A stretch of DNA of 23,296 bases from a virus, in the IMG/VR virus record IMGVR_UViG_3300046694_000385, positions 1 through 23,296 of that record, one strand, 5' to 3'. The notes beneath the pieces were generated by a model. The model saw only the letters and a program-made list of their open reading frames with translations, did not search any database and was not told where the DNA came from. Both the position numbers and the translations under genes were made by a program. Below are positions 1 to 23,296 of this stretch, one piece after another; positions within the stretch are counted from its first letter, which is position 1, and the number at the start of each line of letters is the position of its first letter.

Positions 1-165
1 GACTCGGCCAGCGTGAGCGCCTCCGGCTCGGCCAGCGTGCGCGCCTTCGACTCGGCCAGCGTGAGCGCCTTCGACTCGGCCAGCGTGAGCGCCTCCGGCT
101 CGGCCAGCGTGAGCGCCTCCGGCTCGGCCAGCGTGCGCGCCTTCGGCTCGGCCAGCGTGCGCGCC
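1..165 (+). repeat. 24-bp tandem repeat, about seven copies
   Basis: Units begin at 1, 25, 49, 73, 97, 121 and 145, each built on gactcggccagcgtgagcgc with changes at a few positions (ga/gg at the start, gag/gcg in the middle, tcc/ttc at the end). There are no spacers, so this is a coding tandem repeat and not a CRISPR. It probably continues upstream of the window. Confidence 0.9.
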
Positions 166-633
166 GGCACCCACGTCGCCGTGCACCTGCACTCCGCCCA
201 GGCCACCGTCACCGGCGGAGTCCTCATCGACCTCACCCAACTCGACCTGTCCGACCCGGCCGCATGGTGCGCGCACCACGGCGCTGACGTCGTCGACGGT
301 GTGGCCGTGCTGTACAAGGCCGTCGACCAGGGCCTCACCGCCGGACAGAACTACACGCCGACCGTCTACCCGCTCGGGGCGAGCGTCGAATGCGACGACT
401 ACCGGGCTGACGGCGAGTGCGGCGGCGGTCTGCACCTGTGCCCCACGCCGGAGCAGGCCGCCGAGTACCGGCCGCAGGGTGAGAAGTCCCGGTACCTGAA
501 GGTGCGGGCCGCGCTGGTCGACATGTCGCCGATCGTCGACGCGGGTGGTCCGGCGAAGGTGAAGGCCCGGCGGGTGGATGTGCTGGCCGAGGTTGACCAG
601 TTCGGTCGTGAGCTGACCACTTCCGCTTCCTGA
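1..633 (+). CDS. Beta-solenoid octapeptide-repeat protein, DUF7666-like C-terminal part (5' partial)
   Basis: The frame is open from base 1, so the gene starts upstream of the window. The first 55 or so codons are a tandem octapeptide, (D/G)-S-A-S-V-(S/R)-A-(S/F), encoded by 24-bp units. Alternating small and beta-branched residues of this kind suggest a beta-solenoid, and the motif fades into a longer V-x-A-x stretch. The following domain has the order LYKAVDQGL, then GGGLHLCPTPEQA, then SRYLKVRAAL and KVKARRVDVLAEV. That order resembles the phage/actinobacterial DUF7666 family, where a short GLHxCP motif is typical; the family name is recalled, not searched. Function is unknown. The minus strand through the repeat also reads as a helical octad, but the downstream domain and codon use favour the + strand. 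Confidence 0.75.
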   Translation, partial: DSASVSASGSASVRAFDSASVSAFDSASVSASGSASVSASGSASVRAFGSASVRAGTHVAVHLHSAQATVTGGVLIDLTQLDLSDPAAWCAHHGADVVDGVAVLYKAVDQGLTAGQNYTPTVYPLGASVECDDYRADGECGGGLHLCPTPEQAAEYRPQGEKSRYLKVRAALVDMSPIVDAGGPAKVKARRVDVLAEVDQFGRELTTSAS

Positions 634-11736: not shown

Positions 11737-11842
11737 CGGGTGGGGGTGTCCCCCCAAGGGGTGAGGACTGCGTACCGCCGGAGAGGCCAGCGGCCACCGG
11801 CTCGACTAATTGACTTTGCGCGGACTACGGAGGGTGACTGCC
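11737..11842 (+). other. HNH-terminase gap, candidate cos region
   Basis: 106 bases without a gene. At 11742-11761 the sequence reads ggggg-tgt-cccccc-aa-gggg, with two nested inverted repeats (ggggg/ccccc and cccc/gggg). G/C-rich dyads of this type between HNH and small terminase genes are frequent sites of cos cleavage. An ATT-rich ctaattgactttgcg at 11804-11819 follows, then GGAGGG at 11829-11834, the ribosome site of the small terminase. Confidence 0.4.
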
Positions 11843-12343
11843 GTGGCTGATCCGGTCCGCAAGAAGCCCGTCCTGCAGGTCGTCCGCGAGGGCAACCCGG
11901 GCCATCGGGCGATCCCCGAGTCGCTGGTCCTGCCGCCGGCCGAACTCGCAGAACCGGACTGGCTGGACACCTTCGCGACCGTGCGTGACAAGGACGTGCA
12001 GGCCGCGAACCGCCGGGCCCGCGAGGTCGCCCGTCGCGAATGGCGCCGCATCGTGCCGGTGCTCAAGCACACGGCCGGCCTCGCCGAGGTCGATGCGTCG
12101 CTTCTGCACGACTACTGCGTCTGTGTGGCACGACTGGACCAGTGCGAGCGCGAGCTCTCGGCGAACGGTCTGCTGATCCAGGGCGAGCGCGGCTGGCAGA
12201 AGAACGGCGCGACGACGATCGCGAGCCAGTACCGGGCGCAGCTGAAGGTCTACATCCGCGAGCTCGGTCTCTCCCCGTCGGCCCGGGCGAGCTTCACGCC
12301 ACCGAAGGGCGGCGACGATGACGACGGGGACCCCTTCGACTGA
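11843..12343 (+). CDS. terS: Terminase small subunit, P27 family
   Basis: A 166-residue protein that recognises the packaging site and hands DNA to the large subunit. It has the P27-type order: basic N-terminus (VRKKPVLQVVREGNPGHR), the P-x-x-W-L motif (PPAELAEPDWLDTF), a helix with REWRRIVPVLKHTAGLAEVD, LLHDYCVCVARLDQCERELS, GLLIQGERGWQKNGATTIAS and the closing KVYIRELGLSPSARASF. GTG 11843 sits 8 bases after GGAGGG, while the frame could start earlier at 11810 or 11834. It overlaps the large subunit gene by 26 bases. Confidence 0.85.
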   Translation: MADPVRKKPVLQVVREGNPGHRAIPESLVLPPAELAEPDWLDTFATVRDKDVQAANRRAREVARREWRRIVPVLKHTAGLAEVDASLLHDYCVCVARLDQCERELSANGLLIQGERGWQKNGATTIASQYRAQLKVYIRELGLSPSARASFTPPKGGDDDDGDPFD

Positions 12344-14060
12344 GCGGCCGCTGCCGGTTCCGTACGAGGCGCTGCTCGAGCTGGGTCTGACGCCGGAGCA
12401 GATCGTCGAGGCGCTCGAGTCGACCCCGCTGGTGGTGGCGTTCCAGGCCGAGCAGGCCGAGGGCGCCTGGTTCGACGTCGAGCGGGTCCGCAAGGCGCTC
12501 AAGGGCCTGGCCAGCTTCCGGCACACGAAGGGCCGCTGGGCCGGCAAGCCGCTGCGCCTCGGCCAGGGCCTCGACCCGTGGCAGGTCGTCTGGGTCATCG
12601 CCCCGGTGTTCGGCTGGGTGCGTTACGACGAGGAGGTCGACCAGGTCGTCCGGGTAATCCGGACCGTCTGGATCGAGATCCCGCGCAAGAACGGCAAGTC
12701 GACCCTCGCGTCGGGTGTTGCGAACCTGCTGCTGCTGGCCGACGACGAGATCGGCGCCGAGGTGTACGCCGCGGCCGGCGACAAGCTGCAGGCCCGGCGG
12801 GTCTTCGACGACGCGAAGAAGATGCTGCTGACGTCGCCGTTCGCGCGCCGGCGCACGCGTCCGCTCGCCGACGTGGTCATCGACAACAAGCGCGGCGGCA
12901 TCTTCCGGGTGCTGAGCAAGATCGCCGAGGCCGCGCACGGCCTGAACGTCTCGGGCGCGGCGATCGACGAGATCCACGTCCACAAGTCGCGGCATCTGAT
13001 CGACGCGATCGAGACCGGCACGGGCGCGCGGTCGCAGCCGCTGATCGTGTTCTTGACCACCGCGGACGAGGCCACCGAGGGCTCGATCTACGACGAGAAG
13101 CACAACTACACGCGCAAGGTCGCGACCGCGATCGTCGAGGACGCGACGCACTACGGCGTGATCTGGGCGGCCGAGGACACCGACGACCCGTTCGCCGACG
13201 CGACGCTGAAGAAGGCGAACCCGGGCGTCGGGGTCTCGCCGAGCTGGTCGTATCTGCGCAAGGAAGTCCAGAAAGCGCGCACAACGCCGAGCTACTTCCC
13301 GACGTTCTGCCGGCTGCACCTCAACCGGCGTATGCGCGACGCGGCCCGCGCGATCGACCTGCGGCAGTGGGACGCCTGCGCGGGCATCGTGGACCTGGCG
13401 CGGCTGCGCGGCCGGTCGGCGTGGGGCGGTTTCGACCTGTCGGCGGTCAGCGACTTCACGGCGTGGTGGATGGGCGTGGAGTCTCCGGCGCGGGGCGTGG
13501 ACATCGAGATGTTCTGGCGCTATTTCGTGCCTGAGGATCGCGTCGAGGACCTGGAGCGGCACCTGCAGGTGCCGCTGTCGCGGTGGATCGCCGAGGGCTT
13601 CGTGACCGCGACCGAGGGCGACGTAATCGACTACGCCAAGGTCCGCGACGCCGCACTGGCCGACTGCAAGGTCGTCAACATGCGCCGGATCAGCTACGAC
13701 CGGATGTTCGCCGGCCAGATGGTTCAGGAGATCGACGAGAAGCTGCGCGGCGTTGAGGTCGTGCCGGTGGCGCAGACCTACCTGGGGCAGTCGCCGAGCA
13801 TCAAGGAGCTGTGGCGGCTGCTCGGCAAGACCGACGCGGGCACGGTGGCCGGCCGGATGCGGCACGCCGGCGACCCGGTCACCCGCTGGATGGCCTCGGT
13901 GGTCGAGACGACCAGCGACGGCAACGACAACTACCGCCTTGTGAAGCCGCACCGCGGCAAGTCGCAGGCCCGCATCGACGGCCTGGCCGCGATGACCACC
14001 GGACTGGACGGCTACGTGCGCCGGCGCCGGGTCAAGGCCGCGTCCGCCTACAGCGCATGA
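12318..14060 (+). CDS. terL: Terminase large subunit (ATPase-nuclease)
   Basis: A 580-residue packaging motor with the full two-domain layout. ATPase: PRKNGKST (122-129) as the Walker A-type loop, AIDEI (215-219, D217/E218) as Walker B, and VFLTTAD (244-250) as the coupling motif. RNase H-type nuclease: GFDLSAVSDFTA with Asp373 and Asp379, and a late acidic residue in ARIDGLAAM (about 554). Length and motif order fit the phage terminase_1/HK97-like family. Start ATG 12318 lies inside the small subunit gene. It ends 14 bases before the chosen portal start. Confidence 0.93.
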   Translation: MTTGTPSTERPLPVPYEALLELGLTPEQIVEALESTPLVVAFQAEQAEGAWFDVERVRKALKGLASFRHTKGRWAGKPLRLGQGLDPWQVVWVIAPVFGWVRYDEEVDQVVRVIRTVWIEIPRKNGKSTLASGVANLLLLADDEIGAEVYAAAGDKLQARRVFDDAKKMLLTSPFARRRTRPLADVVIDNKRGGIFRVLSKIAEAAHGLNVSGAAIDEIHVHKSRHLIDAIETGTGARSQPLIVFLTTADEATEGSIYDEKHNYTRKVATAIVEDATHYGVIWAAEDTDDPFADATLKKANPGVGVSPSWSYLRKEVQKARTTPSYFPTFCRLHLNRRMRDAARAIDLRQWDACAGIVDLARLRGRSAWGGFDLSAVSDFTAWWMGVESPARGVDIEMFWRYFVPEDRVEDLERHLQVPLSRWIAEGFVTATEGDVIDYAKVRDAALADCKVVNMRRISYDRMFAGQMVQEIDEKLRGVEVVPVAQTYLGQSPSIKELWRLLGKTDAGTVAGRMRHAGDPVTRWMASVVETTSDGNDNYRLVKPHRGKSQARIDGLAAMTTGLDGYVRRRRVKAASAYSA

Positions 14061-14074
14061 CGAGGGGGGACCGC

Positions 14075-15613
14075 GTGGCACTGACCGCCCAGCAGGCCCT
14101 CACTCAGACCCAGGCCTTGTACGAGCAGGTCGCCGACCGCCGCACCGCGGTCTTGCTGGCCGACGAGTACTACCGCGGCAAGCAGAAGCTGCGGTTCGCG
14201 TCGGCGAAGTGGTCGGAGTACTACGCGCACCGCTACCAGGAGTTCTGCGACAACTGGTGCGGTCCGGTGGCGAACTCGCCGAACGAGCGGCTGCGCGTCG
14301 ACGGTTTCCGCCTCGACGACGACCCGAACGACTCGGACGCCGAGAAATCGCTGTGGCGCGACTGGCAGCTCAACAACATGGAGGCCCAGTCCTCGCAGGG
14401 CTGGCTGGCGTCGATCATCACGGGCCGGTCGTACGTGATGGTGTGGGGCTCGCCGGACGATGAGCCGATCGCCACGTGGGAACGCGCCGATCAGGTGACG
14501 ATCGCCTACGATGTGGAGCAGCCGGGCCTGGCCGTCGCCGCGTTGAAGACGTGGCACGACGGCAGCACCGAGTTCGCGACGCTGTATTCGGCGGACCAGG
14601 TGTGGAAGTGGGAGCGGTCTTACTCCGATCGCAAGCCCAGCCGCATCGATCCTGCTCAGCTGCCGCCACGCGCGGCAGGTTTCTTCGGCGCCGGACCGTA
14701 CGAGACCAGCTCGGGCCTGATCGTGCCGGCCATCGACGAGTCGGGCTGGAAGCCGCGGCAGCCGGACGGCGACAACGCGTGGCCGCTGCCGAACCCGCTC
14801 GGTGTCGTGCCGATCGTGGAGATGCCGAACCGGCCGATGCTCGGCGGTGAGCCGCTGTCGGACATCAGCGGCACCATGGCCATGCAGGACGCCATCAACC
14901 TGCTCTGGGCGTACCTGTTCACCGCCGCCGACTTCGCCTCGATGTCGGCGCGGGTGGTGATGGGGCAGGAACCCCCGTCGATCCCGATCCTGGACGCCGA
15001 CGGGCAGGAGATCGGCCGGCAGCCGGTCGATCTGAAGAAGCTCGCCGAGGACCGCATCATGTGGCTGACCGGCGAGAACACGAAGATCGGCCAGTGGGAC
15101 GCGGCGAAGCTCGACGTGTTCACCGGCGTCATCGAGACCGCCGTGACCCACGTCGCCGCGCAGACCCGCACGCCGCCGCACTACCTGGTGCTCGGCAAGG
15201 GCATGGTGAACGTCTCCGCCGACGGCATGAAGGCCGCCGAGACCGGCCTGGTGAAGAAGGTCGGCGAGATGCAGCTGTTCCTGACGCCGCCGACCCGGGG
15301 CGTCTTCCAGCGGTTCGCGCTGGTGCGTAACCAGAAGGCGCTCGCCGACCAGGCCCGCCTCGGCGCCGTGAAGTGGAAGGACGCCGAGAACCACTCGGAA
15401 TCCCAGCTGGTCGACGCGCTGGTGAAGCTGCAGCAGATCGGCTTCCCGTTCGCCTGGCTCGCCGAGCGGTACGGCCTCGGCCAGACCGAGCTGACCCGGG
15501 TCATGGCCATGCGCGAGACCGAGGCCGAGCGGGACCCGCTCGGCGCGTTGTCCCGCGCGGCCGGCCAGCAGCTGCCCGCGGTCCCGGCCGGCCAGCAGCA
15601 ACCACAGGCGTAG
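14075..15613 (+). CDS. Portal protein
   Basis: A 512-residue portal of the SPP1 Gp6-like family, forming the ring through which DNA enters the head. Recognisable parts are ADEYYRGKQKLRFASAK near the start, CGPVANSPNERLRVDGF, a DISGTMAMQDAINLLWAYLF helix, and the C-terminal LVDALVKLQQIGFPFAWLAE, RVMAMRETEAERDPLGA region. It ends with a Gln-rich tail. GTG 14075 is chosen because GAGGGGGGA lies just upstream; ATG 14057, overlapping the terminase stop, is the alternative and adds 6 residues. It is followed after 3 bases by the MuF gene, the usual order. Confidence 0.9.
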   Translation: MALTAQQALTQTQALYEQVADRRTAVLLADEYYRGKQKLRFASAKWSEYYAHRYQEFCDNWCGPVANSPNERLRVDGFRLDDDPNDSDAEKSLWRDWQLNNMEAQSSQGWLASIITGRSYVMVWGSPDDEPIATWERADQVTIAYDVEQPGLAVAALKTWHDGSTEFATLYSADQVWKWERSYSDRKPSRIDPAQLPPRAAGFFGAGPYETSSGLIVPAIDESGWKPRQPDGDNAWPLPNPLGVVPIVEMPNRPMLGGEPLSDISGTMAMQDAINLLWAYLFTAADFASMSARVVMGQEPPSIPILDADGQEIGRQPVDLKKLAEDRIMWLTGENTKIGQWDAAKLDVFTGVIETAVTHVAAQTRTPPHYLVLGKGMVNVSADGMKAAETGLVKKVGEMQLFLTPPTRGVFQRFALVRNQKALADQARLGAVKWKDAENHSESQLVDALVKLQQIGFPFAWLAERYGLGQTELTRVMAMRETEAERDPLGALSRAAGQQLPAVPAGQQQPQA

Positions 15614-15616
15614 GCC

Positions 15617-17551
15617 GTGGGCATCCGCCGGGTGCTGCAGCTGGCCATCGAGCATCTGCGCCGGCGTCGGAACCTCGCCCGAGCCGCTGCCAGTCGGATC
15701 GGCCGGCTGTGGGCCGCAGTCGACCGCGGCAACATCGCCCGCTCGTGGCAGCAGATGCTGCCGGAGGCCGTCACCGTCGCGGCCCGCGCGCAGGCCCTCG
15801 CCGCCGACGCGTCGGGCGGCTACCTCGACACGATCCTGCGCGAGTACGGCCTGCCGGCCGAGGCCGAGGGCCGGGTGCGTGCGACCAGCCTCGCCGCGGT
15901 GGCCTCCGACGGGCGGCCGCTGGACAGCCTGATCTACCAGCCGGCCATCACCGCCCTGCAGACCATCCAGCGCGGCGGCACGGTCACGCAGGCGATGGCG
16001 GCGGGCGCGTTCGCCACGGACCTGATCGTGCGGACCCAGGTGGCCGACGCCGGCCGTGTGGCCGACGGCGTGGCTCTAGTGGCGGAGCCGAACCTGCACG
16101 GTTATGTGCGGATGCTGAACCTGCCGTCCTGTTCGCGGTGCATCATCCTGGCCGGCAAGTTCTTCGAGTGGAACGCCGGTTTCGAGCGGCACCCGGCGTG
16201 CGACTGCGTGCACGTCCCGGCGCCTGAGGACAACCTCGACGACCTGCGGACGAACCCGAAGAAGCTGTTCGAGTCGATGACCGAGGCCGAGCAGAACAAG
16301 ACCTTCACCATCGCGGGCGCCCAGGCGATCCGTGACGGCGCCGACATGAACCAGGTCGTCAACGTTCGCCGCGGCGCGGCCGGTCTCGCGCCGGCGGGCG
16401 GGCGGGTCACGGCGGCCGAGGTGAAGATCCTGCGCGGCGGGCGCGGGATGGCCCGGCTGCAGCCGACGACGGTGGGCGGCGAGCAGGTGCTCGTCAGCAC
16501 TGAGGGCACCACGCGCCGCGGTTTCGCTGGGCGGCGCCTGCGCGGGGCGCCGCGGTTGATGCCGGAGCAGATCTACAAGATCGCCGGTGACGACCGCGAC
16601 GAGGCCCTGCGGCTGCTGTACCGCAACGGCTACCTGCTCGAGCGGCCCGCACCGCTCAAGCGCCCGGCGCCCACTGTTGCCGCACCTCCCGCTCGGCCGG
16701 TAGTCGTGCCCGCGGCGCCCAAGACCGCACCTCGGCCGGAGCCCGTCGTACCGCCGAAGCCCGTGGCCCCCACGGAACCGGCCGCACCCGATGCTCACGC
16801 GGCGCTCGAGCGCAGCATCGCCAGTGGCATCCGCGAGTCGGAGAAGCTGTCGGGCGGCGCCATCGGCGACGTGAGCCTGGTGACGTTCAACGACGGCAGC
16901 CAGGCGGTCCGCAAGGTAGCCCGCGAGCCGATCTTCGGGTATTCGAATGTGCGGCTGACCGAGAACGAGGTGCTGGCGGAGAAGGTCGGCCGCGCCCTGC
17001 GCGCACCGATCCCGGCGGTCGTCCGCACCGGCGAGACCGAGATCTTCATGCAGTACGTGCCGGACGCCAAGCCGGGCATCTGGCTGTTCCGGGGCATGGG
17101 GCGCGCCGAGCAGATCCCGGCGATCAGCGAGTTCGTCAGGGAGTCCGGCGATTCGGGTCACAGGCTGGGTCTGCTGGATCTGCTGATCGCCAACGACGAC
17201 CGGCACGACGCGAACTGGCTGGTGCGTCCCGACGGCAGCATCGTGGGCATCGACCACGGCCTGGTCTGGCCCATCTCGTGGATCAAGCCGGAAGTGATCG
17301 AGCGTCAGGAGCCGCGCTTCAAGAGCGGGTTCGCCAAGCTGTTCAACCAGGGTTTCCCCGAACTGCCGAACCAGGGCTACATCCCCAACGACCTGACCCC
17401 GGCGGACATCGACTGGGTGCAGGCGCGCCTGGAGGCGCTGCGGCCCGACTTCGACGAGCTGGGCCGGGGCAACTACCTCGACTACTCGCTTGCCCGGCTG
17501 CGACAGCTGCGGCCGTGGGCGCGCGGCACCGTGAACAGGATCAAGCCATGA
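15617..17551 (+). CDS. MuF-like head protein with a C-terminal kinase-like domain
   Basis: A 644-residue fusion. Residues 1-210 are the MuF/VG15 head-morphogenesis region with its metal-type motif C172xxC175...H192-P-x-C195-D-C197. Residues 211-343 continue as a linker domain, and 344-392 are a Pro/Ala-rich tether. Residues 410-560 resemble PI3/4-kinase-like enzymes: QAVRKVA with a candidate ATP lysine (K433), Glu449/451 in LTENEVLAEK, hinge IFMQYV, LLDLLIANDDRHDANWLV with catalytic-type D528 and N533, and IDHGLVW with metal-type D546. All the expected kinase residues appear intact. MuF proteins are packed inside the capsid, so the kinase could be delivered into the cell with DNA. Start GTG 15617. 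Confidence 0.82.
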   Translation: MGIRRVLQLAIEHLRRRRNLARAAASRIGRLWAAVDRGNIARSWQQMLPEAVTVAARAQALAADASGGYLDTILREYGLPAEAEGRVRATSLAAVASDGRPLDSLIYQPAITALQTIQRGGTVTQAMAAGAFATDLIVRTQVADAGRVADGVALVAEPNLHGYVRMLNLPSCSRCIILAGKFFEWNAGFERHPACDCVHVPAPEDNLDDLRTNPKKLFESMTEAEQNKTFTIAGAQAIRDGADMNQVVNVRRGAAGLAPAGGRVTAAEVKILRGGRGMARLQPTTVGGEQVLVSTEGTTRRGFAGRRLRGAPRLMPEQIYKIAGDDRDEALRLLYRNGYLLERPAPLKRPAPTVAAPPARPVVVPAAPKTAPRPEPVVPPKPVAPTEPAAPDAHAALERSIASGIRESEKLSGGAIGDVSLVTFNDGSQAVRKVAREPIFGYSNVRLTENEVLAEKVGRALRAPIPAVVRTGETEIFMQYVPDAKPGIWLFRGMGRAEQIPAISEFVRESGDSGHRLGLLDLLIANDDRHDANWLVRPDGSIVGIDHGLVWPISWIKPEVIERQEPRFKSGFAKLFNQGFPELPNQGYIPNDLTPADIDWVQARLEALRPDFDELGRGNYLDYSLARLRQLRPWARGTVNRIKP

Positions 17552-17748
17552 CCGTCATCCAGCTCATCGACGCCCGAACCGGCGAGGTGTACGACACGGT
17601 CACCGTCGACGGTGACCGCATCACCTACGACACCGGCGACGCCCGCGACCTGATCGAGTCCCGGGCCCGGCTCGCCGACGGCACCGACCAGCTGATCGCC
17701 TCCCTCGACGGCTGGTCCAACGGCTACGTGGCCACGCGGCTGCGCTGA
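17548..17748 (+). CDS. Small hypothetical virion-region protein
   Basis: A 66-residue protein from ATG 17548 with an ATGA overlap. Beta strands at the start (MTVIQLIDARTGEVYDTVTV, DRITYDTG) are followed by SRARLADGTDQLIASLDGWSNGY. Proteins like this often sit between portal/MuF and scaffold genes in actinophages. Function is unknown. A 9-bp hairpin follows the stop. Confidence 0.65.
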   Translation: MTVIQLIDARTGEVYDTVTVDGDRITYDTGDARDLIESRARLADGTDQLIASLDGWSNGYVATRLR

Positions 17749-17804: not shown

Positions 17805-18530
17805 ATGAAGATCCACCTCCCGGTCGTTGGGCCGGAACTGCCCGTGCACCACTTCACCGGGCTGGCCGCGCTCGGGCTGCGCCGCAACGGCGCTCCGATC
17901 TGGCCGGTCCGTGGTGGCGCACCTGACGACGCCGATCCCGCTGATGACGTCGACCCGGATCCGGCCGACGGCGACGGCGCCGATACGGACGACGGCGCCG
18001 ACAAGCTCGGCGACGCCGGCAAGCAGGCCCTCGACCGGATGAAGACCCGGCTACGCGAAGAGCGGACGGCGCGCAAGGCGCTCGAGGCTCAGATCGCCGA
18101 CGCGAACAATAAGCCGGCGAAGGACGAGGACGCACCGGACCCGGCCGAACTCCGCAAGACGGCGCGGGCCGAGGCCCGCGCCGAGGTCCTGAACGAGCGG
18201 GCCCTCGACAAGGTCGAGGCGAAGGCGGCGAAGCTCTTCGCCGACCCCGAGGACGCCCGCGCGCTGCTGGCCGGCCGGGTCGACGAGTTCGTCGACGACG
18301 GCAAGGTCGACGTCGAGGCCATCGAAGAGGCCCTCGGCGAACTGTTGAAAAAGAAGCCCCACCTGGCCGCCGCAACGGCGAAGAGGTTCCAGGGCGGAGC
18401 GGACGGCGGTGCCCGCAAGGGGTCCGGGGTCTCGCAAGTCACTGAGCAAGACCTCAAGCGAATGAACCCCGAGCAGATCGTCAAGGCCCGCGAAGAGGGC
18501 CGGCTGACCGAGCTGCTCGGAACAACCTGA
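17805..18530 (+). CDS. Capsid scaffolding protein
   Basis: A 241-residue, strongly acidic and helical protein placed directly before the coat gene, the usual spot for a scaffold that guides procapsid assembly. It starts with a conserved-type segment (HLPVVGPELPVHHFTGLAAL, then GAPIWPVRGG), passes through an Asp-rich stretch (residues 40-65), then a long coiled coil (ALDRMKTRLREERTARKALE). It ends with the scaffold-type MNPEQIVKAREEGRLTELLG. No protease motif is visible. ATG 17805 follows GGAG by 8 bases. Confidence 0.85.
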   Translation: MKIHLPVVGPELPVHHFTGLAALGLRRNGAPIWPVRGGAPDDADPADDVDPDPADGDGADTDDGADKLGDAGKQALDRMKTRLREERTARKALEAQIADANNKPAKDEDAPDPAELRKTARAEARAEVLNERALDKVEAKAAKLFADPEDARALLAGRVDEFVDDGKVDVEAIEEALGELLKKKPHLAAATAKRFQGGADGGARKGSGVSQVTEQDLKRMNPEQIVKAREEGRLTELLGTT

Positions 18531-18544
18531 CCCGAGAGGCAGAC

Positions 18545-19387
18545 ATGGCCATCACCCGGTTCCGGCCGGAGATCTGGTCTGCGGAACTCCTCGTCGCGCT
18601 TCGCAAGAAGCTGGTCTACGCCGGTCCCGGCGTGGTCAACCGCGACTACGAGGGCGAGATCGCGCAGGCCGGTGACACCGTCCGGATCACCTCCATCTCC
18701 GACCCGACGATCGGCACGTACTCGGCGAACGTCACGGTCGTGACGCCCGAGGAACTGACCGACGCGCAGCGGACCCTGGTCGTCGACCAGGCGAAGTACT
18801 TCGCGTTCTTCGTCGACGACGTCGACCAGCGCCAGGCCAAGGGCAACGTGATGCCCGAGGCGATGCGGCGTGCCGCGTACAAGCTCGCCGACCAGGCCGA
18901 CCAGTTCGTCGCCGCGTTCTACACCGGCGCGCAGGCCGCGAACGCCCTGGGCACCGTCTCGGTGACTACCGCGGCCATCGCCGAGGCGCAGATCATCGCG
19001 CTCAAGGTGAAGCTCGACGAGGCGAACGTGCCCAGCGAGGGCCGGTATGTTGCAGTGCCGCCGTGGTACCACGGCCTGCTGCTGGGCTCCGACCACTTCG
19101 TGCGGCTCGACGCATCGGGCACCACCGAGGCGCTGCGCAACGGCACCGTGATGCGCGGCTTCGGCTTCGACATCCTCGTGACCAACAACGCGCCGCTGGT
19201 CACCGGCGACGACTACGCCGTCATGGCTGGCGTCGACTCGGCGATCAGCTTCGCCGAGCAGATCAACAAGGTGGAGGCGTACCGGCCCGAGGCCAAGTTC
19301 GCCGACGCCGTCAAGGGCCTGTACCTCTACGGCGCCAAGCTGGTGCGGCCCGACTCCATCGCCACGCTCGTCGCGAGCAAGACCTGA
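18545..19387 (+). CDS. Major capsid protein
   Basis: A 280-residue coat protein, probably of the HK97 fold. Matching features are an N-arm (FRPEIWSAELLVALRKKLVY), the E-loop-like AQAGDTVRITSISDPTIGTY, a long spine helix region (VMPEAMRRAAYKLADQADQF), and late A-domain strands (VMRGFGFDILVTNNAPLVTG, KLVRPDSIATLVASK). The wording ISDPTIGTY and FVDDVDQRQ is close to the P22-coat-like branch, but this subgroup is tentative. It follows the scaffold with GAGAGG at 18534. No separate capsid protease is seen in the cassette. Confidence 0.9.
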   Translation: MAITRFRPEIWSAELLVALRKKLVYAGPGVVNRDYEGEIAQAGDTVRITSISDPTIGTYSANVTVVTPEELTDAQRTLVVDQAKYFAFFVDDVDQRQAKGNVMPEAMRRAAYKLADQADQFVAAFYTGAQAANALGTVSVTTAAIAEAQIIALKVKLDEANVPSEGRYVAVPPWYHGLLLGSDHFVRLDASGTTEALRNGTVMRGFGFDILVTNNAPLVTGDDYAVMAGVDSAISFAEQINKVEAYRPEAKFADAVKGLYLYGAKLVRPDSIATLVASKT

Positions 19388-22038: not shown

Positions 22039-23296
22039 ATGTTCGACCGGCCGGACGCTGACCTCTGGTGGCCGGGCGACGGCCCGTACCCGGCCAGCCG
22101 GTTCCTGCCGGACCCGAGCTCCACCAGCCGGCCCACCTTCCTCAGCTCCACGATCGTCGACCAGTTCACCGACGGCACGGTGGACACGGCTCTGTGGACG
22201 AACAACTACGGCACAGTGTCGGAGACCGGCGGCCGGGGCCGGATCACCTGCGACACCGGCTACAGCGGCTTCTCCACCGCCATGCTCTACACCTGGGACG
22301 ACGTCTACGCCGGACTGTTCCCGCCCGCGCTCGCCAGCGCGACCAGCGAGTGCTACCTCGAGATGCTGCTCTACTCGCCGGGTCAGGCGCTGGGCACCGA
22401 CGTGGGTTTCTACATCGACCAAACCGGTGGCGTCTTCTACTGCGTGAGCCGGGTCGGCTACTTCGACGGCACCGCCTCACCGATCACCTACAGCGGCACG
22501 ACGCACGCGTGGATGCGGATCCTACGCAGCGGAACCGACATCCTGTTCCAGACCGCACCCGACGGCAGTACCTGGACGACCAGGCGCACGCTGGCCGCGC
22601 CGTCCTGGCTGCTCGCCGCCACCGACCTGCAGCTGTTCTTCGAGTCGCACCGCAGCGACGGAACGAACAACTTCGCCGAGATCGACAACGTCAACTCGGC
22701 CGGGCTCACCACGCACACCGCCGACGCGGCCCTGGCCGTCACGGCGACGCTGAGCGCGGACACCTCGGCGGCGCGCCCGGCCGACGCCGCACTGGTAGCG
22801 ACCGCGACCCTGACGGCCGACGCGACCCGCACGGCGATCGTCGACGGCGCCCTGGCGGTCACCGCCTCGCTGACAGCCGCGGCCACCCGCACCGCGATCG
22901 TGGACGCCGCGCTGACAGTCACGGCGACGCTCACCGCGGCGGCGGTCACCGCCCGGCCGGCTGATGCGGCGCTCGCGGTCACGGCAACGCTCTCGGCGGC
23001 GGCGACCCGTACGGCACTGGTCGCGGCGTCGGTCGCGGTGACCGCGACGATCGCCGCCGCAGCGACGCGGACCGCGCTCGTATCCGCCGCGCTGCCGGTC
23101 ACGGCGACCCTGTCGGCGACCGCGATCGTCGGCACCGCCCCGATCCTCGCCGACGCGGCACTCGCGGTGCCCGCCACGCTGAGCGCCGCGATCGGCCGCA
23201 CGGCGACCGGCGCCGCGACGCTGGCGGTCACCGTCACGACGACAGCGGCGGCATCCCGGACGGCACCGGCCACGGCCTCGCTCACCGCGACCGTCA
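22039..23296 (+). CDS. Large repeat-bearing virion/adhesin-like protein (3' partial)
   Basis: The frame from ATG 22039 stays open to the end of the window (419 codons seen). Residues 38-218 look like a concanavalin/laminin-G-type jelly roll (VDQFTDGTVDTALWTNNYG, GFYIDQTGGVFYCVSRVGY, AWMRILRSGTDILFQTAPDG, NFAEIDNVN), which often bind sugars. From residue 228 (about base 22720) there are at least nine imperfect repeats of 19-21 residues built on D-A-A-L-A-V-T-A-T-L-S-A-A-A-T-R-T-A. The missing 3' end hides any tip domain. A tail fibre, tail or surface adhesin is the best guess. Confidence 0.75.
   Translation, partial: MFDRPDADLWWPGDGPYPASRFLPDPSSTSRPTFLSSTIVDQFTDGTVDTALWTNNYGTVSETGGRGRITCDTGYSGFSTAMLYTWDDVYAGLFPPALASATSECYLEMLLYSPGQALGTDVGFYIDQTGGVFYCVSRVGYFDGTASPITYSGTTHAWMRILRSGTDILFQTAPDGSTWTTRRTLAAPSWLLAATDLQLFFESHRSDGTNNFAEIDNVNSAGLTTHTADAALAVTATLSADTSAARPADAALVATATLTADATRTAIVDGALAVTASLTAAATRTAIVDAALTVTATLTAAAVTARPADAALAVTATLSAAATRTALVAASVAVTATIAAAATRTALVSAALPVTATLSATAIVGTAPILADAALAVPATLSAAIGRTATGAATLAVTVTTTAAASRTAPATASLTATV
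22720..23296 (+). repeat. Coding tandem repeat of about 57-63 bp
   Basis: Each unit encodes A-A-L-x-V-T-A-T-L-(S/T)-A followed by a variable 7-10 residue part, often A-x-x-T-R-T-A. The repeat is imperfect at DNA level, and the amino-acid pattern is better kept than the codons, which argues for selection on protein shape. It runs off the window. Confidence 0.75.

Follow-up and report, generated by a model that had tools for sequence, protein, structure and literature searches.

A MuF-type head protein with a PI3/PI4-kinase-like domain and a small partner gene: a candidate capsid-delivered effector pair of tailed viruses

What is a kinase-like domain doing at the end of a viral head protein? 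The question is raised by a MuF-kinase fusion gene in IMG/VR virus record IMGVR_UViG_3300046694_000385, of which we analyzed positions 1 to 23,296 (hereafter, the window, 23,296 nucleotides long). We propose, with a probability of roughly 0.6, that this gene encodes a capsid-packaged effector kinase accompanied by a cognate inhibitor or immunity protein, a variant of the MuF toxins. The proposal builds on a kinase fold with its catalytic set, its fusion to MuF, a swap of cargo between relatives, the joint transfer of the kinase with a small neighboring gene, and the tight linkage of the two. The original prediction for this DNA had placed an open reading frame (ORF) at 15617–17551, in which a Pro-rich linker tethers a kinase-like domain to a MuF domain. 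Both points were borne out, the first by a 644-amino-acid (aa) frame on the (+) strand and the second by a match of fusion-protein residues 5–351 to phrog_1522 in a PHROG profile search (E 1.8e-81). The partner gene goes beyond that prediction, which made no mention of the 66-aa ORF. The gene pair is laid out as follows:

15617..17551, + strand: MuF-kinase fusion gene, GTG start, 644 aa
15617..16651, + strand: MuF-type minor head protein domain, residues 1–345 (phrog_1522 match; 28 IMG/VR relatives)
16652..16789, + strand: Pro/Ala-rich linker, residues 346–391 (from the sequence; the cargo changes here between relatives)
16790..17548, + strand: PI3/PI4-kinase-like domain of protein-kinase-like (PKL) fold, residues 392–644 (K433, E451, D521, D528, R529, N533, D546)
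17548..17748, + strand: 66-aa "GWSNGY" partner ORF, in ATGA overlap with the kinase stop; candidate inhibitor/immunity protein

The C-terminal domain has a PKL fold and is closest in sequence to the type II PI4-kinases. Pfam family PF00454 (PI3_PI4_kinase) matched at 30.8 bits with the whole protein and 32.8 bits with the domain alone (curated cut-off 27.1), the match covering the catalytic-loop segment only. Homologues were drawn from phage records, IMG/VR and bacterial genomes, and 26 diverse sequences (19–89% identity to the window) were aligned. E451, D521, N526, D528, R529, N533, I545 and D546 were invariant and K433 was more than 90% conserved, each of K433, E451, D528, N533 and D546 being kept in 25–26 of the 26; the catalytic DRxxxN loop, the metal-binding IDxG motif, the N-lobe lysine and the helix glutamate of PI3/PI4 kinases are all present. 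The motifs named in advance were in place at K433, E451, D528 and N533 of NDDRHDAN, and D546 of IDHG; the other proposed helix glutamate, E449, proved less conserved. Across 35 non-redundant kinase proteins with a partner, the catalytic residues were likewise invariant or nearly so. AlphaFold2 returned a confident kinase fold, as the predicted PI3/4-kinase-like domain should (predicted local distance difference test score, pLDDT, 86.2; predicted template-modeling score, pTM, 0.85), and Foldseek aligned the model in the PDB with PRPK, RIO2, PknB and VPS34 at probability 1.00 and a template-modeling score of about 0.4.

Searching the PDB with a profile of the 26 homologues retrieved PI4K type II-alpha (4.6e-13; 4pla, 4hnd), then Fam20-type secretory-pathway kinases (3.6e-8; 4kqa, 5xom) and, further down, the PIKK protein kinases ATM and mTOR around 1e-3, so that the DRHxxN and IDHG segments, on whose likeness to kinases the call had hinged, do match PI3/PI4 kinases by profile. 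Detection needed the profile: with the single domain, phmmer gave only sub-threshold PI4K2 matches (0.17). The domain shares the order of DRHxxN and IDxG with the PI4K type II and Fam20 kinases and, unlike them, is cargo of a viral head protein. Because Fam20 and then PIKK protein kinases follow PI4KII among the profile matches, the label "PI3/4-kinase-like" does not imply activity on lipids. Among other families considered, NCBIfam SCO1664 gave a weak match to the window protein (2.4e-4), far under its cut-off, and HipA gave none in Pfam or NCBIfam at E ≤ 1, HipA_2 matches being confined to a few relatives of the kinase.

The MuF half lets the kinase be viewed as exchangeable cargo. Used as a query in IMG/VR, it retrieved 28 MuF-first loci (L008–L035) together with two kinase-bearing relatives (L006/L007). 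In one of the 28, L008, the MuF protein sequence is 78.6% identical and an ADP-ribosyltransferase (ADPrib_exo_Tox, 1.1e-12) stands at the end in place of the kinase; the other 27 (L009–L035), two of which are truncated at a contig end, stop 0–39 aa past the MuF match with no detectable cargo. Related MuFs thus end in a kinase, an ADP-ribosyltransferase or nothing, as expected of the exchanged effectors of MuF toxins. Between the window and L006, the MuF halves are 54.8% identical with a synonymous divergence (dS) of 0.75, as opposed to 91.7% and 0.147 for the kinases and 92.4% and 0.219 for the small partner ORFs; the linker (48%) lies at the change from 55% to 92%, and DNA similarity ends where the partner gene ends. 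Because synonymous divergence drops, this pattern means a recent transfer of kinase and small ORF as a single block and cannot be put down to stronger selection on the protein alone. The swap in L008, this cassette transfer between diverged MuFs, and fusions to other head and portal proteins all support the earlier view of a MuF protein with C-terminal cargo.

Related kinases occur as fusions with three or more MuF-type head families, with a portal protein, and with proteins of the haloviral neck-gene region. In Micromonospora phage pMLP1 the kinase lies at the C-terminus of a Phage_min_cap2 protein (1.7e-75), and six loci carry Phage_Mu_F-kinase fusions (L051, L058, L066, L068, L070 and L071), several of them under the Phage_Mu_F cut-off and one, L071, with a weak ADP-ribosyltransferase match between the two domains. 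The kinase is fused to a portal protein in L061 (Phage_portal under cut-off), joined to ADP-ribosyltransferases in polyvalent proteins of L072 (an Actinoplanes-type genome) and L039 (a giant protein), and contained in a 2235-aa protein two genes past the portal of Microbacterium phage Pumpernickel. Halovirus gp16, in the head/neck gene region, belongs to the same kinase family and already carries the GenBank annotation "phosphatidylinositol kinase". By Pfam, the 35 non-redundant kinase proteins with a partner included 8 with VG15, 4 with Phage_min_cap2, 3 with Phage_Mu_F and 5 with an ADP-ribosyltransferase. Some relatives are located in bacterial genomes (L072, L077).

Very large proteins also contain this domain. 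Nocardiopsis/Streptomonospora proteins of over 1400–2200 aa carry it at their end (L073–L076), the middle of L075 matching many DNA-binding helix-turn-helix families, which may be an artefact of repetitive composition, and in the Nocardia genome of L078 it lies within giant reading frames 8166 and 10113 aa long (L087, L088, L091).

The partner ORF begins inside the kinase stop codon (ATGA). Its product had no Pfam, PHROG or PDB family match by sequence; AlphaFold2 gave a confident fold (pLDDT 97.1, pTM 0.82), for which Foldseek found no significant match in the PDB or BFVD (best in viral structures 0.12). A HipS-like identity is unsupported, with no PDB match by sequence or by Foldseek. Judged by these comparisons, the GWSNGY protein is a new family. 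We assessed its linkage independently of the kinase by scanning IMG/VR with a degenerate DNA motif for GWSNGY, requiring at least 30 in-frame residues upstream of the motif and asking whether a kinase domain lay no more than 3 kb away on the same strand. One of this family did so at 52 of the 55 loci coding for GWSNGY and at 3 of 9 with T in place of S; none was found at 28 control loci where the same DNA pattern coded any other residue, or at 7 with the motif in short frames. The contrast of 52/55 with 0/28 (Fisher 4e-19) is inflated by duplicates, the loci comprising 40 non-redundant kinase ORFs. The partner was also absent from all 28 MuF-first loci, and the small downstream ORF, cotransferred with the kinase, is thus tied to the effector domain in the manner of MuF toxins.

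Homologues of the partner stand beside the kinase in L006/L007, L072, pMLP1/L038 and L037, and upstream of it in the L041 group. Searches with a mixed alignment failed for want of conserved columns, and single-sequence searches found near copies only. The partner was rare in the genomes compared, about 100 from relatives of the L072 host and 395 from its class, and four genomes gave a significant match: a homologue adjoins the kinase in two (L193, L196), one carries a lone homologue (L197), and in the fourth (L195) the match was weak and unconfirmed by the partner profile.

Two further sets of small ORFs were seen next to related kinases. In haloviruses related to HSTV-2, a 76-aa ORF directly follows the kinase (L002 7965–8195, L062 1154–1381, L065 5668–5895) and has a WDNG/WDGS-like C-terminal motif (NWDNG or SWDGS); it may be a remote form of the GWSNGY partner. 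Behind the Phage_Mu_F-fused kinases lies a different, 81–90-aa family with a PSDG...DAL...F motif (L058 5475–5720, L066 5495–5749, L068 5525–5770, L070 5492–5764), perhaps a second partner type.

How might such a pair work? SPP1 gp7, a protein of the MuF class, is drawn into the procapsid in few copies by the portal and supports the start of infection (PMC6316719), and packaging and injection are assumed for MuF-ADP-ribosyltransferase fusions (PMC9503650). In MuF toxins the C-terminus varies and an immunity gene lies downstream, as with Apk2, which is neutralized by IapK, encoded just downstream (PMC12226406). By analogy, the portal would recruit the MuF half into the procapsid, bringing along an intact PI4KII-related protein-kinase-like domain as exchangeable cargo; at infection the kinase would reach the host cell together with the DNA or before it and phosphorylate a host target. 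The co-transcribed GWSNGY protein would bind and inhibit the kinase, or otherwise neutralize it, in the producing cell or lysogen, leaving it active only after delivery. Catalysis, packaging, injection, the host target and inhibition are all steps that we infer.

The resemblance to the MuF polymorphic toxins of temperate phages (Jamet 2017, PMC5576092; Apk2/IapK, PMC12226406) extends to the MuF-type N-terminus, the variable C-terminal enzyme and the co-traveling small downstream ORF. The candidate pair described here differs from them in its PKL-fold kinase cargo, a term that the main text of PMC5576092 does not use, and in its new partner family. Polyvalent proteins and MuF-fused effectors (PMC5512222, PMC9503650) similarly join MuF or portal to effectors, including ADP-ribosyltransferases, thought to be packaged and injected. 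Their protein kinases, unlike ours, are described as being without the C-terminal subdomain and occur mainly in Verrucomicrobia-Chlamydia/Bacteroidetes elements, and a term search of both papers did not find a PI3/PI4-type kinase. The pairing of a kinase with a small, separately encoded protein recalls HipBST, where HipS inhibits the kinase HipT (PMC9325769, PMC10627512), from which our pair differs in that the GWSNGY protein has no HipS-like match in the PDB and is usually encoded downstream; no HipB-like gene was seen, though no search was aimed at HipB. MuF-fused effectors with immunity genes are already known, and it is the kinase cargo and the partner family that are new: we found neither in the open-licence papers searched, and an earlier mention elsewhere is possible.

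Kinases delivered by the virion would allow tailed phages to alter host proteins or metabolites ahead of all phage gene expression. The family numbers at least 40 non-redundant pairs of kinase and partner from uncultured viruses, and the sequenced actinophage pMLP1 has one more. We put at about even the chances of a broader proposal, that kinase and GWSNGY protein form a mobile two-gene kinase-inhibitor module of many bacterial tailed viruses, with a possible archaeal-virus counterpart, attached to a head, portal, neck or polyvalent protein as the opportunity arises and acting as a phosphorylating effector delivered at infection. The dedicated partner offers a simple handle, toxicity and neutralization being open to direct test, and its motif doubles as a marker for further effectors of this kind.

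Several observations weigh against an effector with its immunity protein. No lysogeny gene was recognized in the 23-kb fragment, and related kinases occur in haloviruses, in which lysogeny is not established. Phage_Mu_F-fused kinases have another small downstream ORF or none that is clear. The homologue in L197 (5288–5551, –), in an Actinoplanes-type chromosome, has the changed motif DWCDG and no kinase in the 11 kb examined; it may be an orphaned immunity gene. Rapid diversification is usual in toxin-immunity pairs, yet the GWSNG(Y) motif is near-invariant, in part since most partners were fetched by that motif; such conservation also fits a conserved regulator or substrate.

This last point leads to the view, unlikely in our judgment, that the GWSNGY protein is a substrate or activator of the kinase, phosphorylated at S57/Y60 or activating it, and not protective. 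The very tight linkage would suit such a pair, as would the upstream position of the partner in some loci and the hydroxyl residue that all pattern-fetched partners linked to a kinase (52 S, 3 T) have at the center of GW[S/T]NGY. Against this, the search pattern admitted no residues but S, T, C, W and R, or a stop, at the center, placing A and G outside its reach, and the haloviral ORFs have other residues there; for these reasons S57 is no more than a candidate obligatory phosphoacceptor. Joint mobility is compatible with an enzyme-substrate or activator pair and with an inhibitor.

It is improbable that the kinase works undelivered, in assembly within the producing cell or virion, for example by phosphorylating scaffold or capsid. 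Its place in the head operon, beside the scaffold and capsid genes, would agree with such a role, and T7-like phages use kinases intracellularly; most MuF relatives nevertheless do without a kinase, an ADP-ribosyltransferase replaces it in L008, and its combination with ADP-ribosyltransferases in polyvalent proteins is the behavior of cargo and not of an assembly requirement. A pseudokinase or nucleotide-binding structural module, which the low identity to characterized kinases and the restriction of the Pfam match to the catalytic loop might suggest, is very doubtful given catalytic positions that are all conserved in the 26 sequences at about 20–35% identity and in the 35 kinase proteins with a partner, and a ratio of nonsynonymous to synonymous divergence (dN/dS) of about 0.35 between the kinases of the window and L006.

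The proposed effector gene sits among the head genes, beside the portal, as in MuF toxins:

11810..12343, + strand: putative terminase small subunit (position, sequence and gene order)
12318..14060, + strand: putative terminase large subunit (sequence)
14057..15613, + strand: portal protein (sequence and order), ending 3 bases before the MuF-kinase gene
17805..18530, + strand: probable scaffold protein (order and composition)
18545..19387, + strand: probable major capsid protein (order)

Portal adjoins MuF in annotated actinophage relatives as well. Pfam VG15 matched the fusion protein at 22.5 bits, slightly under the cut-off of 26. PHROGs and actinophage records label this MuF family "head/capsid maturation protease"; a MuF protein fits the order portal-MuF-scaffold-capsid better than that label does. 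At the left contig end (window 1–200) there are low-complexity repeats (SASGSASVRAF), and at the right (22039–23296) lies a probable tail/fiber ORF, the C-terminal part of which is a run of degenerate ADAALAVTATLSA-type repeats; the ORF is truncated where the contig stops.
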